32,518 nucleotides of DNA from Treponema sp. (GTDB taxonomy: Bacteria > Spirochaetota > Spirochaetia > Treponematales > Breznakiellaceae): the NCBI GenBank assembly GCA_031256445.1, contig JAIRQN010000099.1, positions 1 through 32,518 of the forward strand. The letters run 5' to 3'. A program made the position numbers and the translations under genes. Each line of letters begins with the position of its first letter. Within the stretch, counting starts at the first letter, position 1. The notes under the pieces were generated by a model that saw only the letters and a list, made by a program, of their open reading frames with translations, ran no database searches and was not told the origin of the DNA. This document shows, piece by piece, positions 22,985-32,197 of the stretch.

Positions 22985-24733
22985 TTATTTCGTGTATAAC
23001 GGCAACTCCACATATTTCGTGTGAAGCAGTTGATGCGCTTTATGTCCGCCCGGCTCTCCAAGGAATTCATCGTAAACCTGGGTAATGAACGGATTCAGGT
23101 GAGAACAGCGGTACTGCGATTTTTCATCGTCTGTGTAAATACCGCTTGTCCGTTTTTTCCTGATTTCGTCCGTGCAGCCGTAGGGCTGGCCTCCGCCCGC
23201 GATACATCCGCCGCGGCATGCCATTACTTCGACAAAGTGATAGGGCGGCTCCTGCCCTGCCTCTTTCGCGGCGCGGATTTTATCCAGAACCGCGGCGATG
23301 TTGCCCATCTGGTGCGCGACCGCGATGCGGATCTTTGTGCCGTTTCCAAAATCAACTTCCCCCTCCTTAACGCCTTCAAGCCCGCGGGCGGGTTTAAAGT
23401 TAACATCGGGGAGTTCTTTCTTTGTTACAAGGTAGTAAGCGCTGCGGACAGCGGCTTCCATTACGCCGCCTGTTACGCCGAAAATTGTTCCCGCGCCAGT
23501 GTACGGCCCTAATGGACTGTCCGCTTCTTCATCGTCCAGCTTGAGTATCTCAATACCCGCCTGTTTGATCATGCGTGCGAGTTCCCTTGTCGTTATCACT
23601 ATGTCAACATCGTAGCCGTGGCCGGCGCTCTTCATGTCGTCGTTGCGCCGCGTTTCCCATTTCTTTGCTGTGCATGGCATAACAGATACTGAATATACCT
23701 TGTCGGGATCCACCTGCGCTTTTCCCGCCCAGTACGCCTTTATCATCGCTCCCATCATCTGCTGCGGCGATTTTGCCGTAGAGAAGTTGGGGATCATGTC
23801 GGAGTAGTATTTTTCCATGTAATCGACCCACGAGGGGCAGCAGGAAGTAATAAGGGGGATTGTGCCTTTTTCTGTCAGGCGTTTCACAAGTTCGGAACCT
23901 TCTTCCATAATTGTAAGGTCAGCGGAGAAATTTGTATCAAAGACCGTCTTAAATCCAAGACGGCGCAGGGCGGCGTAAATTTTCCTTGTGAACACAGTTC
24001 CCGGCTCAAGGCCGAACTCTTCAGCTAACGCGACGCGGACGGCGGGGGCAATCTGCACCACTGGATGCTTTTGCGGGTCCTGAAGCGCGTTCCACACCTT
24101 TACGGTATCGTCGCGTTCGTAAATCGCGCCAACGGGGCAGTGGGCGGCGCACTGGCCGCACTTGATGCACGGGCTTTCACCTAACGGAGCGTCCGCCGCG
24201 CTGGCGATCTTTCCCTTGATGCCCCGGCCCAGAAATTCAAGGGCCCACACATTCTGCACTTCCTGGCACACTTTTACGCATCTGCCGCAGCGGATGCACT
24301 TTTCGGGGCAAAGTACAATCGCGGGGTTGGAATCGTCAACCGGAAGATCGTTCTTTACCTTTTTGAACGGCGCCTGCCGTATCCCGAATTCTGCCGCCAA
24401 ATCCTGAAGTTCGCAGGACTGGTTGCGCGGACACTGGAGGCAGTCATCAGGATGATTGGAAAGGATGAGTTCCAGCACAGTGCGCCGCACGGATATAATT
24501 TCCGAATCGTGGGTAATAATATTCATGTTGGGTTCGCATGCCGTAATGCAGGCGCGCACCATCTTCGCCGATCCCGCCATTCTTACAATGCACAGGCCGC
24601 AGGAAGCCCACGGCGGAAGATCGGGGTTGTAGCAGAGCGTTGGAATTTTTATATTCACCATTTCCGCCGCTTTAAGGATCGTCGTCCCCGGTTCAACTTC
24701 CAGCGCTTTACCGTTAATTGTTATGTTAATCAT
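22985..24733 (-). CDS. hydA: [FeFe] hydrogenase catalytic subunit HydA
   Basis: A 582-residue H-cluster subunit that makes or oxidises H2 in the cytoplasm. It has, in order: a 2Fe-2S ferredoxin domain (C34, C45, C48, C62); a His-Cys3 4Fe-4S site (H94, C98, C101, C107); two 4Fe-4S sites (CIRCGRCVKVC, CIKCGQCAAHC, residues about 146-199); the H-domain with L1 TSCCPSW (296-302), L2 MPCTAKKWE (352-360) and L3 EVMACRGGCIAGGGQP (502-517); and the small-subunit tail. All H-cluster Cys are present, and the enzyme should be active if HydE/F/G maturases exist elsewhere. No PAS domain is seen, so it is not the sensory type. It is 13 bases after hydB. The composition fits the trimeric NAD-linked, bifurcating class (family inference). 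Confidence 0.96.
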   Translation of the reverse strand: MINITINGKALEVEPGTTILKAAEMVNIKIPTLCYNPDLPPWASCGLCIVRMAGSAKMVRACITACEPNMNIITHDSEIISVRRTVLELILSNHPDDCLQCPRNQSCELQDLAAEFGIRQAPFKKVKNDLPVDDSNPAIVLCPEKCIRCGRCVKVCQEVQNVWALEFLGRGIKGKIASAADAPLGESPCIKCGQCAAHCPVGAIYERDDTVKVWNALQDPQKHPVVQIAPAVRVALAEEFGLEPGTVFTRKIYAALRRLGFKTVFDTNFSADLTIMEEGSELVKRLTEKGTIPLITSCCPSWVDYMEKYYSDMIPNFSTAKSPQQMMGAMIKAYWAGKAQVDPDKVYSVSVMPCTAKKWETRRNDDMKSAGHGYDVDIVITTRELARMIKQAGIEILKLDDEEADSPLGPYTGAGTIFGVTGGVMEAAVRSAYYLVTKKELPDVNFKPARGLEGVKEGEVDFGNGTKIRIAVAHQMGNIAAVLDKIRAAKEAGQEPPYHFVEVMACRGGCIAGGGQPYGCTDEIRKKRTSGIYTDDEKSQYRCSHLNPFITQVYDEFLGEPGGHKAHQLLHTKYVELPLYTK

Positions 24734-24746
24734 TTTCTATCCTCCC

Positions 24747-26561
24747 TTAAGCCTTGATAACCGCGTTAAATTTACAGGTGACAATACACTCGCCGCATTT
24801 CAAACAATCCGTCTGATTGATGATATACGGAGGACGTTTCTTGTCAGGGTACTTGGCGGCATCTTCCGGGACAATGCAGTTGGCGGGACATTTCTTCGCG
24901 CACGCGCCGCAACCGATACATTTTGGAGCGTCAATAGAAAAGCTGATCAGCTTTTTGCATTTGCCGGAACGGCATTTTTTATTGTGAATATGTTCAAGAT
25001 ACTCTTCTTTAAAGTTACGAAGAGTGGACATTGTCGGGTTTGCCGCGGTACAGCCGAGCATACACAGCGAAGCCCTTGTCATCGCGTTGCCGATTGATTC
25101 AAGCTTTTCAAGGTCTTCGTCACAGCCCTTGCCCTCGGCGATTTTTTCCAGAATTTTTAATATCTGCGTAGTGCCGATGCGGCATGGCGAACATTTCCCG
25201 CAGCTTTCCTCAACGCAGAATTCCATGTAGAAGCGCGACACGTCAACTACGCAGTCGTCTTCGTCCATTACGATCATGCCGCCCGAACCCATCATGGAGC
25301 CGTTGGCTGTAAGCGATTCAAAATCAATCGGCACATCAAGGGATTTTTCAGTCAGGATGCCGCCCGAGGGTCCTCCCGTCTGAACGCCCTTGAACTTTTT
25401 CCCGCCCTTTATGCCGCCGCCGATGTCAAATACAATTTCGCGTAATGTCGTTCCCATCGGCACTTCGATTAGTCCCGAACTTTTTACCTTGCCGGTAAGG
25501 GCGAAAACTTTTGTTCCCTTGGATTTTTCGGTTCCAATCTTCGCGAGCCACGCCCCGCCCCTTGCGGTAATTACAGGGACATTCGCCAGGGTTTCAACGT
25601 TGTTAATGATTGTTGGTTTCCCCCAAAGCCCCTTGTTTGCCGGGAAAGGCGGTTTGGGAACGGGCATTCCCCTGTTGCCTTCCACGGATTTAATGAGCGC
25701 GGTTTCCTCGCCGCAGACAAACGCGCCCGCTCCAAGGCGGATTTCAATATCAAAATCAAAACCGGAGCCGAGTATGTTTTTGCCCAGCAGCCCGTAATCG
25801 CGCGCCTGAACCAGCGCTATTTTTAAACGTTCAATCGCAAGCGGGTATTCCGCGCGGATGTAGACATAACCCTGATTGGAGCCGATTGCCTTACCGGCTG
25901 TTATCATGCCTTCTATAATTGAATGAGGGTCGCCTTCTATTGTAGAGCGGTCCATGTACGCGCCGGGATCGCCTTCGTCGGCGTTGCAGATAACAAACTT
26001 CTGATCGCCCTGCGCTTTCCTGGCAAGATCCCACTTGAGCCATGTGGGGAAACCAGCGCCGCCCCTTCCGCGAAGCCCTGAAATTTTCATTTCTTCGATA
26101 AGCTGTTCCTGCGTCCATTCAAAAAGAACTTTCTCAAGGCCGGAATAGCCTTCGCGGGCGATATATTCATCAATTATCGTGGGATCAATAACGCCGCAGT
26201 TACGCAAAACTACGCGGTACTGTTTCTGGTAAAACGGAATATCTTCCACAACGGCGGACTGCTTTTTTTCTTCGCCTTCGTTGTAAAGGAGCCGTTTCAC
26301 TTCGCGCCCTTTTACAATATGCTCCGCGATAATATCTTTCGCGTCTTCGGGTTTTACTTCAACGTAAAAAGAATCTTCAGGCAGAACCTTTACGATCGGC
26401 CCTTTTTCGCAAAAACCGAAACATCCGGTTTTTACAATCTGTACCTGATCCTTAACGCCGTGTTTATCCGCCTCGGCGTTAAGCTGCGCAAAAAGTTCTA
26501 TGCCCTTGTTGGATTCGCAGGCTGTGCCGCCGCAGACCAGTATGTAATGGTTATACGCCAT
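24747..26561 (-). CDS. hydB: NuoF-like hydrogenase subunit HydB
   Basis: A 604-residue flavoprotein subunit. The N-terminal thioredoxin-like 2Fe-2S domain has C10, C15, C47 and C51. The FMN/NAD(H)-binding domain has SGLRGRGGAGFP (161-172), ICNADEGDPGAYMDR and GAGAFVCGEETALI. An SLBB domain follows, then the NuoF 4Fe-4S site (ESCGKCSPC, 452-460, plus C500). The C-terminus adds two ferredoxin 4Fe-4S sites (CIGCGACAKKC, 548-558; CLKCGECIVTC, 586-596), as in HydB of bifurcating hydrogenases and unlike NuoF of complex I. Its job is to pass electrons between NADH (or NADPH), ferredoxin and HydA. It is 13 bases after the small 2Fe-2S gene. Confidence 0.95.
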   Translation of the reverse strand: MAYNHYILVCGGTACESNKGIELFAQLNAEADKHGVKDQVQIVKTGCFGFCEKGPIVKVLPEDSFYVEVKPEDAKDIIAEHIVKGREVKRLLYNEGEEKKQSAVVEDIPFYQKQYRVVLRNCGVIDPTIIDEYIAREGYSGLEKVLFEWTQEQLIEEMKISGLRGRGGAGFPTWLKWDLARKAQGDQKFVICNADEGDPGAYMDRSTIEGDPHSIIEGMITAGKAIGSNQGYVYIRAEYPLAIERLKIALVQARDYGLLGKNILGSGFDFDIEIRLGAGAFVCGEETALIKSVEGNRGMPVPKPPFPANKGLWGKPTIINNVETLANVPVITARGGAWLAKIGTEKSKGTKVFALTGKVKSSGLIEVPMGTTLREIVFDIGGGIKGGKKFKGVQTGGPSGGILTEKSLDVPIDFESLTANGSMMGSGGMIVMDEDDCVVDVSRFYMEFCVEESCGKCSPCRIGTTQILKILEKIAEGKGCDEDLEKLESIGNAMTRASLCMLGCTAANPTMSTLRNFKEEYLEHIHNKKCRSGKCKKLISFSIDAPKCIGCGACAKKCPANCIVPEDAAKYPDKKRPPYIINQTDCLKCGECIVTCKFNAVIKA

Positions 26562-26574
26562 TTTTCATCTCCCT

Positions 26575-26970
26575 TTATTTGTTTAGAATATCTATGGCAG
26601 GACGGTCCAGAATGTGGCCGCTCAGCATTTCTTTGCCGATTAAATGTTTTTGAATGATCTCTTTGGCAACCGCGTCATTCACATTGCCGTAAATAACAGG
26701 CGGCATCCCCGGAACGATGACTTCGACAGTAGGTTCTGAATGACAAAGCCCCATACATCCGGTTTGGCGCACAAGGCATGAGTCCACGAGCTTGTGCTCG
26801 TCAAGACCGGCGATAAAAGCGTCAAGGGTCTGTTTCGCGCCCGCGGCGATACCGCAGGTTCCCATGCCGACAATAACCTGCGTTTCCTTGCCGTCCGCCT
26901 CGCGCTTGCGCATATCGTTCTTTTTTTCATCCCTCAGTTTTTTTAAATCATCAAGACTCATCTTTGCCAT
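26575..26970 (-). CDS. thioredoxin-like 2Fe-2S ferredoxin, HndB-like
   Basis: A 131-residue protein with a charged helical N-terminus (LDDLKKLRDEKKNDMRKRE) and a thioredoxin-like 2Fe-2S domain. Possible ligands are C39 (GTCGIAAGA), C65, C72 and C76 (TGCMGLC). It resembles HndB, a component of NADP-reducing [FeFe] hydrogenases (family knowledge). The frame opens at a TTG 12 bases further upstream, but the GGAGG ribosome binding site sits inside that extension. ATG 26970 is therefore the real start. It lies between the ATPase gene and hydB. Confidence 0.88.
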   Translation of the reverse strand: MAKMSLDDLKKLRDEKKNDMRKREADGKETQVIVGMGTCGIAAGAKQTLDAFIAGLDEHKLVDSCLVRQTGCMGLCHSEPTVEVIVPGMPPVIYGNVNDAVAKEIIQKHLIGKEMLSGHILDRPAIDILNK

Positions 26971-27021
26971 GTTTTCCTCCAAAACCTGTTAAATTAAAAT
27001 ATTTAATGCCAATATTAACCT

Positions 27022-27561
27022 CTATGATTCACTCTCTTCGAGCGAATTTAAATACTCTCCAAGCAGGATCAATGATCCTGTATCTTCCAGCCCGCCCAGA
27101 GCTTCGGCAAGTTCCGATTTACGGACCTCGTATTCATCGTTTGGTTTACGGCGGCGCAGAATAATATCCGCGCTGCCTTCAAACATTAAAATCGTTCTGA
27201 ACATTCCCGCAATGTCGCCGGTCGGCGGTATGTCAACATTTTTCGCGTCAAACCAGGCTGTTACCGTAGTGCCGCTTCCCTTTACGGAATTTATTTCCGA
27301 GCCGCCGCCTGACTGCTCCGCTGTCTGAATCAGAAACGGCAGCCCAAGTCCTACCTTCCGGTTTGGATGCTTAATTCCGTCAGTAACAAAAGGATCAACC
27401 GCTCTTTTTAACTCCTCCTCTGTCATCCCCTTGCCATTGTCTTTTACAAGAAAACGGAATTCATTATCGCTCTCGCTTACCTCAAGTTCAACCAAACCGG
27501 CGCCCGCCTCTACGGCGTTCTGCGTAATGTCGGTAATAAGGTCAGCAAGCGTAAAATGCAT
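27022..27561 (-). CDS. GHKL ATPase-domain protein of the hydrogenase operon
   Basis: A 179-residue protein with a histidine-kinase-type ATP-binding domain: N box DITQNAVEAG (N15), G1 DNGKGM (41-46), G2 VGLGLPF (70-76) and a TTVTAWF strand. There is no dimerisation/phospho-acceptor His domain, so it is not a full sensor kinase. The last ~65 residues (IAGMFRTILMFEGSADIILRR…) are an unknown extension. Similar ATPases are found inside hydrogenase operons of fermentative bacteria (for example, as I recall, the Acetobacterium hydCEDBA set). A regulatory or assembly role is a guess. There is no Shine-Dalgarno sequence close to ATG 27561; a perfect hairpin touches the start instead. Confidence 0.85.
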   Translation of the reverse strand: MHFTLADLITDITQNAVEAGAGLVELEVSESDNEFRFLVKDNGKGMTEEELKRAVDPFVTDGIKHPNRKVGLGLPFLIQTAEQSGGGSEINSVKGSGTTVTAWFDAKNVDIPPTGDIAGMFRTILMFEGSADIILRRRKPNDEYEVRKSELAEALGGLEDTGSLILLGEYLNSLEESES

Positions 27562-27562
27562 T

Positions 27563-27585
27563 GTTAAAAACCCGCGGTTTTTAAC
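27563..27585 (-). promoter_or_regulatory. perfect 10-bp hairpin abutting the ATPase start codon
   Basis: GTTAAAAACC (27563-27572) and GGTTTTTAAC (27576-27585) pair perfectly around CGC. The structure ends one base before the ATG at 27561. On the transcribed strand AAAGGA (complement of 27595-27600) lies 9 bases before it, so folding would bring this possible ribosome binding site to a normal distance. It could also bind a regulator or act as an attenuator. Confidence 0.5.
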
Positions 27586-27630
27586 CTGGGAGTATCCTTT
27601 GGAAACTCCGGGCGCATTAAAATAATTTGT

Positions 27631-28119
27631 TTAAACATTCTGATACTTGGCAATAATACCGGGAAGCATGTCCTTGGTGATTTTTCCGAAAGTATCAGTT
27701 CCAACCGTGAGCACAGGCGCAAGTCCGCAGCAGCCGACGCACCGGACAGGGTCTACAGAAAATTGACCGTCTTCGGTTACGCCGTCCGGTTCGATTCCCA
27801 GAAGCTTCCGTATTTCATCAAGCAGATCCTGGGAGCCTTTTAAATAGCAGGCTGTTCCCAGACATACAGAAATCTTGTGCTTTCCCGGCTTTGTTGTTTT
27901 AAAAAAGTGATAAAAAGTGATTACCCCGTATATCCGGGCCAGGGAAATTCCGGTAAGCCTGGACAGCTTTTCAGCCGCAGGGCGGGGAATAAAACCGAAA
28001 AATTCCTGGGTTTTATGGAGAATCATGATAAGACTCCCTGGTTTTACCTTCCATTCATCAATAAAAGCGAGCAATTCAGGAGGAAAGGTAATTTCTTCCT
28101 TCGCGATAGCTTGAGCCAT
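27631..28119 (-). CDS. hydC: NuoE-like hydrogenase subunit HydC
   Basis: A 162-residue thioredoxin-like 2Fe-2S subunit, the first gene of the operon. Helical N-terminal half (LLAFIDEWK…LMILHKTQEFFGFIPRPAAEKLS…IYGVITFYHFF) is typical of NuoE. The ligands are C86 and C91 (CLGTAC) and C127 and C131 (CVGCC). It carries electrons between the NuoF-like subunit and the ferredoxin sites. The frame opens 12 bases earlier at a TTG, but GGAGG lies in that extension, so ATG 28119 is the start. It is preceded by a strong promoter. Confidence 0.95.
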   Translation of the reverse strand: MAQAIAKEEITFPPELLAFIDEWKVKPGSLIMILHKTQEFFGFIPRPAAEKLSRLTGISLARIYGVITFYHFFKTTKPGKHKISVCLGTACYLKGSQDLLDEIRKLLGIEPDGVTEDGQFSVDPVRCVGCCGLAPVLTVGTDTFGKITKDMLPGIIAKYQNV

Positions 28120-32165: not shown

Positions 32166-32197
32166 AAGCAAATTCCGGATTGCTCCGGAATTTGCTT
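32166..32197. other. 14-bp perfect inverted repeat between lipoprotein genes
   Basis: Arms 32166-32179 and 32184-32197 are perfect complements around the loop TTGC. The structure stands between the stop of the gene ending at 32217 and the start at 32151. On the transcribed strand it is followed by TTTAAAG rather than a T-run, so it is a weak terminator at best or an intercistronic stabiliser. Confidence 0.6.

Follow-up and report, generated by a model that had tools for sequence, protein, structure and literature searches.

In a multimeric [FeFe]-hydrogenase operon of Treponema sp., the start codon of a GHKL ATPase gene is preceded almost directly by a perfect hairpin, HP2, which is the 3' member of a two-hairpin repeat related to the Rfam candidate RNA TD-2. 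HP2 lies in the gap between hydC and the ATPase gene on a 32,518-nucleotide stretch of DNA, the whole of which we refer to as the window. Its pairing is conserved among hairpin-bearing relatives at the same junction, and most of these relatives carry a GGAGG Shine-Dalgarno sequence at the apex. We think it probable that the repeat is used in this gap as an RNA start-site hairpin that limits translation of the ATPase, any effect on translation being a prediction from sequence.

The operon lies on the minus strand and reads hydC, GHKL ATPase gene, hydD-like gene, hydB and hydA (Table 1). The Shine-Dalgarno duplex energy is -3.7 kcal/mol for the ATPase gene and -10.5, -9.3, -7.5 and -9.8 kcal/mol for the other four genes. 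The window's apex has changed from GGAGG to GCGGG, and the ATPase gene is therefore the only one of the five that lacks a good Shine-Dalgarno sequence. A short inverted repeat, GTTTT-GGAGG-AAAAC, flanks the Shine-Dalgarno sequence of the hydD-like gene (window 26971-26985) and ends at its ATG. Elsewhere, genomes G017 and G026 each have two copies of the ATPase gene.

Table 1. Features of the hydrogenase operon and its hydC-ATPase gap in the window.
Feature	Position	Strand	Remarks
hydC (thioredoxin-like [2Fe-2S] subunit)	27631..28119	-	ATG 28119, Shine-Dalgarno GGAGG
HP1, GGAGUUUCC-AAA-GGAUACUCC hairpin with a single internal mismatch	27589..27609	-	decayed copy of a dispersed GGAGTTT...AAACTCC palindrome
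AAAGGA, candidate Shine-Dalgarno of the first-pass annotation	27595..27600	-	apex and 3' arm of HP1
Linker between HP1 and HP2, 3 nt	27586..27588	-	
HP2, perfect 10-bp hairpin with loop GCG	27563..27585	-	inverted repeat of the first-pass annotation
HP2 apex GCG plus first GG of 3' arm (GCGGG)	27571..27575	-	GGAGG (Shine-Dalgarno) at the homologous place in most hairpin-bearing relatives
GHKL/HATPase_c ATPase gene (HydE-like)	27022..27561	-	ATG start
hydD-like gene (no Pfam hit)	26575..26970	-	ATG 26970, Shine-Dalgarno GGAGG
hydB (NuoF-like flavin and Fe-S subunit)	24747..26561	-	
hydA ([FeFe]-hydrogenase catalytic subunit)	22985..24733	-	

The first-pass annotation of this DNA had described a perfect hairpin abutting the ATPase start codon, and this is borne out. 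Read on the minus strand (27585..27563), HP2 is GTTAAAAACC-GCG-GGTTTTTAAC, with 10/10 pairs around a 3-nt loop and a predicted energy of -8.1 kcal/mol. A single base (27562) separates it from the ATG at 27561-27559, leaving the start codon outside the stem in the window genome; the order ahead of the gene is ...GGAGTTTCCAAAGGATACTCC CAG GTTAAAAACC GCG GGTTTTTAAC A ATG. Directly upstream of HP2 lies HP1 (predicted -8.8 kcal/mol), which the annotation had not mentioned; the two form one element, with HP2 as its 3' half and HP1 as its slightly decayed 5' half. The window contains two perfect stems of at least 10 bp with loops of 3-8 nt, compared with 0.43 per window expected under a first-order Markov null; the second of them (14 bp, 4-nt loop, AAGCAAATTCCGGATTGCTCCGGAATTTGCTT, 32166-32197) is close to the window end. 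Allowing up to three mismatches, the HP2 sequence is single-copy in its own genome. Since the predicted fold of the 111-nt leader is not unusually stable overall (z -1.18) and perfect stems of this size are no more than mildly rare over 32 kb, the case rests on comparison. The stem by itself is modest evidence, and its exact position and conservation are decisive.

For this comparison, 117 hydC-ATPase junctions were extracted. The close relatives named in genome records are Treponema MAGs, many of which seem to come from termite-gut projects, judging by isolate names rather than by statements in the records; the wider set is mostly metagenome-assembled genomes as well. At many junctions hydC and the ATPase gene abut or nearly do so and there is no Shine-Dalgarno sequence (duplex energies mostly near 0 to -4 kcal/mol), which suggests translational coupling. 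Other junctions carry an insert with HP2 immediately before the start codon and often HP1 ahead of HP2. Examples of HP2 are GCTAAAAACC-GGA-GGTTTTTAGC in L026, GCTAAAAAACC-GGA-GGTTTTTTAGC in L137, GTCAAAAACCC-GGA-GGGTTTTTGAC in L138, GGTCAAAACCCC-GGA-GGGGTTTTGACC in L218 and CATTAAAAAATC-GGA-GATTTTTTAATG in L015, where the stem includes the start codon; the start codon likewise falls within the stem end in L019, L048, L059, L093, L136, L229 and L257. In L021 and L051, ACG takes the place of the relatives' ATG in the ATPase frame, after a strong Shine-Dalgarno sequence GGGAGGTTTTT, a possible non-standard start.

The hairpin is dispensable, given the many relatives that lack it: among 98 junctions placed on an ATPase tree, 32 abut and another 40 have other gaps, in both cases without a hairpin. 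When hairpin presence, called at a 7-bp threshold that was chosen with the sequences already in view, is mapped on this weakly resolved tree, it requires 19 changes, at least seven of them forced by well-supported branches; a single origin of the hairpin is not resolvable on such a tree. We also considered gap lengths divisible by three as a sign of coding and rejected this, as many are not divisible and a 51-nt repeat unit accounts for the long gaps.

Where the hairpin is present, its pairing is maintained through sequence change. In 22 distinct junction sequences, chosen for an apparent hairpin and hand-centred on the apex before alignment (both of which favour structure), 95.9% of HP2 positions form standard pairs compared with 76.3% after shuffling (0/500 shuffles). 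Two-sided changes number 40 versus 11.5 in shuffles, and covariation is 0.546 versus 0.158 in shuffles and at most 0.156 when the partner is slid by 1-3 columns. The shuffled and slid controls were made from the same selected set, and the covariation therefore describes pairing kept among hairpin-bearing junctions, not among all junctions. Among the six sequences closest to the window, the HP2 stem is 93.3% paired versus at most 65% when slid; this clade holds too few changes for its pairing percentage to be separable from shuffles (66/500). An alignment of the junction had been put forward in the first-pass annotation as a check on the hairpin, and the compensatory changes it called for are found across the 22 junctions. 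With HP2 conserved in this manner, the structure-dependent start site proposed there is credible.

In most hairpin-bearing relatives, GGAGG spans the apex and 3' arm at a distance of 3-10 nt from the start codon, and its duplex energies range from -9.5 to -10.7 kcal/mol. Intermediate values occur in L012 (-7.0 kcal/mol) and in L015 and L093 (both -6.6 kcal/mol), and the window and its near relatives have apices GCGGG, GCAGG, ACAGG, TGCGG and GAAGG, at -3.2 to -4.0 kcal/mol. Loss of the apex Shine-Dalgarno sequence in the window lineage may reflect decay rather than function.

The two-hairpin element at the junction belongs to a dispersed family. For the HP1 palindrome, G004 has 80 matches to the pattern GGAGTTT-N4-24-AAACTCC, G011 has 19, G008 15, G007 13 and the window's own genome three, versus 0-2 matches to a reversed control pattern in the genomes covered. 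Dispersed HP1 copies commonly have a second hairpin within a few bases, perfectly paired and variable in sequence. What is dispersed is the unit HP1+HP2, whose arms vary, and not the sequence of HP2. HP2 as an exact dispersed repeat was rejected: AAAAACCGGAGGTTTTT was found in 3/40 genus genomes, twice at the junction and once beside a tRNA-like sequence. Counting adjacent hairpin pairs of every kind gives 13 over 280 kb of G008 (1 when shuffled) and 11 over 75 kb of G004 (0 when shuffled), and the window has exactly one such pair, HP1+HP2. Several dispersed two-hairpin copies adjoin tRNA genes or tRNA-like 3' ends (L132, L141, L142, L286, L287, L291, L295 and L302).

A covariance model of the two hairpins, R1, was built from eight hydC-ATPase junctions of other genomes, most of them from other genera. 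It matches window 27563-27609 over its full length at 48.2 bits (E 5.6e-9, an E-value that the tool itself describes as rough), the best match in the 2.8-Mb genome. R1 also matches TD-2 loci (about 28-42 bits) and dispersed copies, which reach 56.5 bits, and it has matches in 32/40 genus genomes, with 47 copies in G004. Rfam names the dispersed element TD-2 RNA (RF03162, clan CL00124), with L159 scoring 61.2 bits against a gathering score of 48.7; TD-2 occurs in many genus genomes, and some genomes from another family of the order have it in abundance. Against the Rfam TD-2 model, the orthologous copies at the junction reach 27.5-37.2 bits, below that gathering score, and every TD-2 match among the junction loci falls at the junction.

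HP1 and HP2 show the TD-2 arrangement of a central GAGUUU...AAACUC hairpin followed after 2-4 nt by a hairpin with A-rich and U-rich arms. The window copy has no match to the Rfam TD-2 model even at E 5, and at the gathering score Rfam reports only a tRNA in the window. There is no 5' hairpin with an AUGGAU-like loop in window 27610-27640, and the apex of the window's 3' hairpin is GCG rather than ANGGAU. The window copy is therefore filed as TD-2-related, not as TD-2, and we take the element to be a repeat of this kind that resides at a ribosome-binding site. None of the 17 TD-2 loci examined has a same-strand ORF start codon within 12 nt downstream, and placement at a start codon is thus special to the hydC-ATPase junction. 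A literature search for TD-2 found nothing.

Taken together, we favor a reading in which the hairpin of the relatives would present a Shine-Dalgarno sequence in its apex, with the start codon at or just past its base, so that ribosome entry at the ATPase start would be damped by the mRNA hairpin. The non-structural ATPase would then be made in lower or conditional amounts relative to HydC, HydD, HydB and HydA. Both junction types, the coupled one without a Shine-Dalgarno sequence and the one with a hairpin-held Shine-Dalgarno sequence, fit a low need for the ATPase under this interpretation. In the window, the drift of the apex to GCGGG predicts weak initiation, which might rely on residual apex pairing, on AAAGGA bridged by HP2, or on reinitiation after hydC; HP2 itself may help by bridging or may simply remain through decay.

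Bridging would amount to a split ribosome-binding site like those of phage T4, with AAAGGA as the Shine-Dalgarno sequence and HP2 bringing it from 33 to 10 nt from the ATG. The first-pass annotation had placed AAAGGA about 10 bases from the start when folded and over 30 when unfolded, and this geometry is right: the distance from 27600..27595 is 33 nt linearly and 10 nt with HP2 skipped, which agrees with the ~5-11 nt expected of a T4-type split site. Its further statement that AAAGGA is the only possible site holds insofar as no other good linear Shine-Dalgarno sequence exists at the window's ATPase start, and it does not generalize, as most hairpin-bearing relatives have GGAGG in the apex. 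L004, L005 and L007 share with the window (L001) the AAGGA in the HP1 apex, together with the hairpin and a weak apex, and the mechanism is known from T4 genes 38 and 25 (PMC3014915). Against this, AAGGA arises automatically from the HP1 palindrome, which spells it as TTTCC-GAA-GGAAA (with CCGAAGG seen among relatives and also in a dispersed copy), and that copy, L145, lies away from the hydC-ATPase junction and from any gene start. The distant Shine-Dalgarno sequence is neither free nor conserved: its GGA is paired within HP1 in the predicted fold, and upstream AAGGA is absent from L013, L014 and L219, all three of which retain HP2. A split site is possible in the window genome, is not what the conservation shows, and on the whole strikes us as rather unlikely.

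We regard with similar doubt the view that a repeat was inserted or duplicated between the genes and left hairpins that no longer serve any function in the window genome. The dispersed nature of the family, with its 47 copies in G004, is consistent with such a neutral remnant, as are the loss of the apex Shine-Dalgarno sequence in the window, the many relatives without a hairpin and the tandem 51-nt duplications at the junction in one genus (HP1 plus the 5' part of HP2, in the gaps of L138, L221 and L223). A remnant does not readily account for strong two-sided covariation at one orthologous site in 22 distinct sequences, for the retention of GGAGG in most of these junctions, or for L026, which has lost HP1 and kept HP2.

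A CsrA-type operator, in which CsrA binds an apex GGA over the Shine-Dalgarno sequence and represses the ATPase while TD-2 copies act as operators or sponges, appears very unlikely. A csrA gene is present in the window's own genome (G000:C68:18069-18227, E 1.2e-23) and in 33/40 genus genomes, known binding sites of CsrA consist of GGA within a hairpin loop (PMC7652899), and most outer loops of TD-2 copies, unlike the middle ones, read ANGGA(U/C). The window apex, however, is GCG and has no GGA, the GGA of AAGGA in HP1 is predicted to be paired rather than displayed in an ANGGA loop, junction apices read C-GGA-G without an A two bases ahead of GGA, and SELEX disfavoured long stable stems (PMC7652899). 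In TD-2 loci L186, L187, L189, L190, L195, L197, L199 and L201, both outer hairpins have GGA loops and resemble CsrA/RsmA binding RNAs, and most of the genomes concerned carry csrA. A broader and still speculative idea, which we hold to be unlikely, is that TD-2-type repeats are portable CsrA-responsive RNAs with paired ANGGA hairpins, one of which was co-opted as an ATPase start-site switch in termite-gut Treponema and repeatedly gained, lost or remodelled between species.

An intrinsic terminator or attenuator within the operon, the latter raised in the first-pass annotation, is highly improbable: although a mechanical scan lists HP2 as terminator-like, it counts only 3 G-C pairs, the tail AATGCATTTT on the 3' side is the gene start rather than a U-tract, and relatives have the start codon at the same place. 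Nor does any evidence support the annotation's other suggestion, a DNA operator for a redox regulator, the element being a dispersed RNA-like repeat. A translated leader peptide of 17 codons (27617..27564, stop TAA 2 nt before the ATG) is open in the window, with similar frames in L005, L007, L012, L013 and L057, but is scarcely credible and was ruled out on the broken frames in L004, L015, L019, L047 and L093; L005 and L007 also lack an ATG for it, the window's leader ATG has no visible Shine-Dalgarno sequence, and the codon phase varies between genera.

In the reading we prefer, the hairpin-limited start site, a dispersed structured repeat akin to a candidate RNA would serve a defined gene of an energy-metabolism operon as its ribosome-binding site, which would make the junction element a handle on TD-2 RNA function. 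Species with the hairpin, without it, or with a lost Shine-Dalgarno sequence would form a natural series for start-site hairpins that set [FeFe]-hydrogenase subunit ratios.

The element can be compared with several known systems. With TD-2 RNA it shares the genus, the dispersed copies, the order of the GAGUUU...AAACUC hairpin, 2-4 nt and an A-rich/U-rich 3' hairpin and, in the window's relatives, a GGA apex on that 3' hairpin; it differs in the window's shortened 3'-hairpin apex, which has lost ANGGAU, in the missing 5' AUGGAU hairpin and in its place exactly at a start codon, unlike the sampled TD-2 loci. Start-site hairpins that sequester a Shine-Dalgarno sequence or start codon are known, for example in T4 gene e (PMC3014915), and in most hairpin-bearing relatives the stem similarly covers or abuts both; the junction hairpin, in contrast, derives from a dispersed repeat and exposes part of its Shine-Dalgarno sequence at the apex instead of enclosing it in the middle of the stem. 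T4 genes 38 and 25 likewise have a hairpin between a distant Shine-Dalgarno sequence and the start (33 to 10 nt here), whereas the distant sequence in the window is weak and itself lies in a hairpin, and most relatives have a good one in the apex. Finally, the hydABCDE operon of Acetobacterium woodii also encodes a histidine-kinase-like ATPase within an [FeFe]-hydrogenase operon, the product of hydE, which resembles the one described here and does not belong to the active enzyme (PMC3315566).
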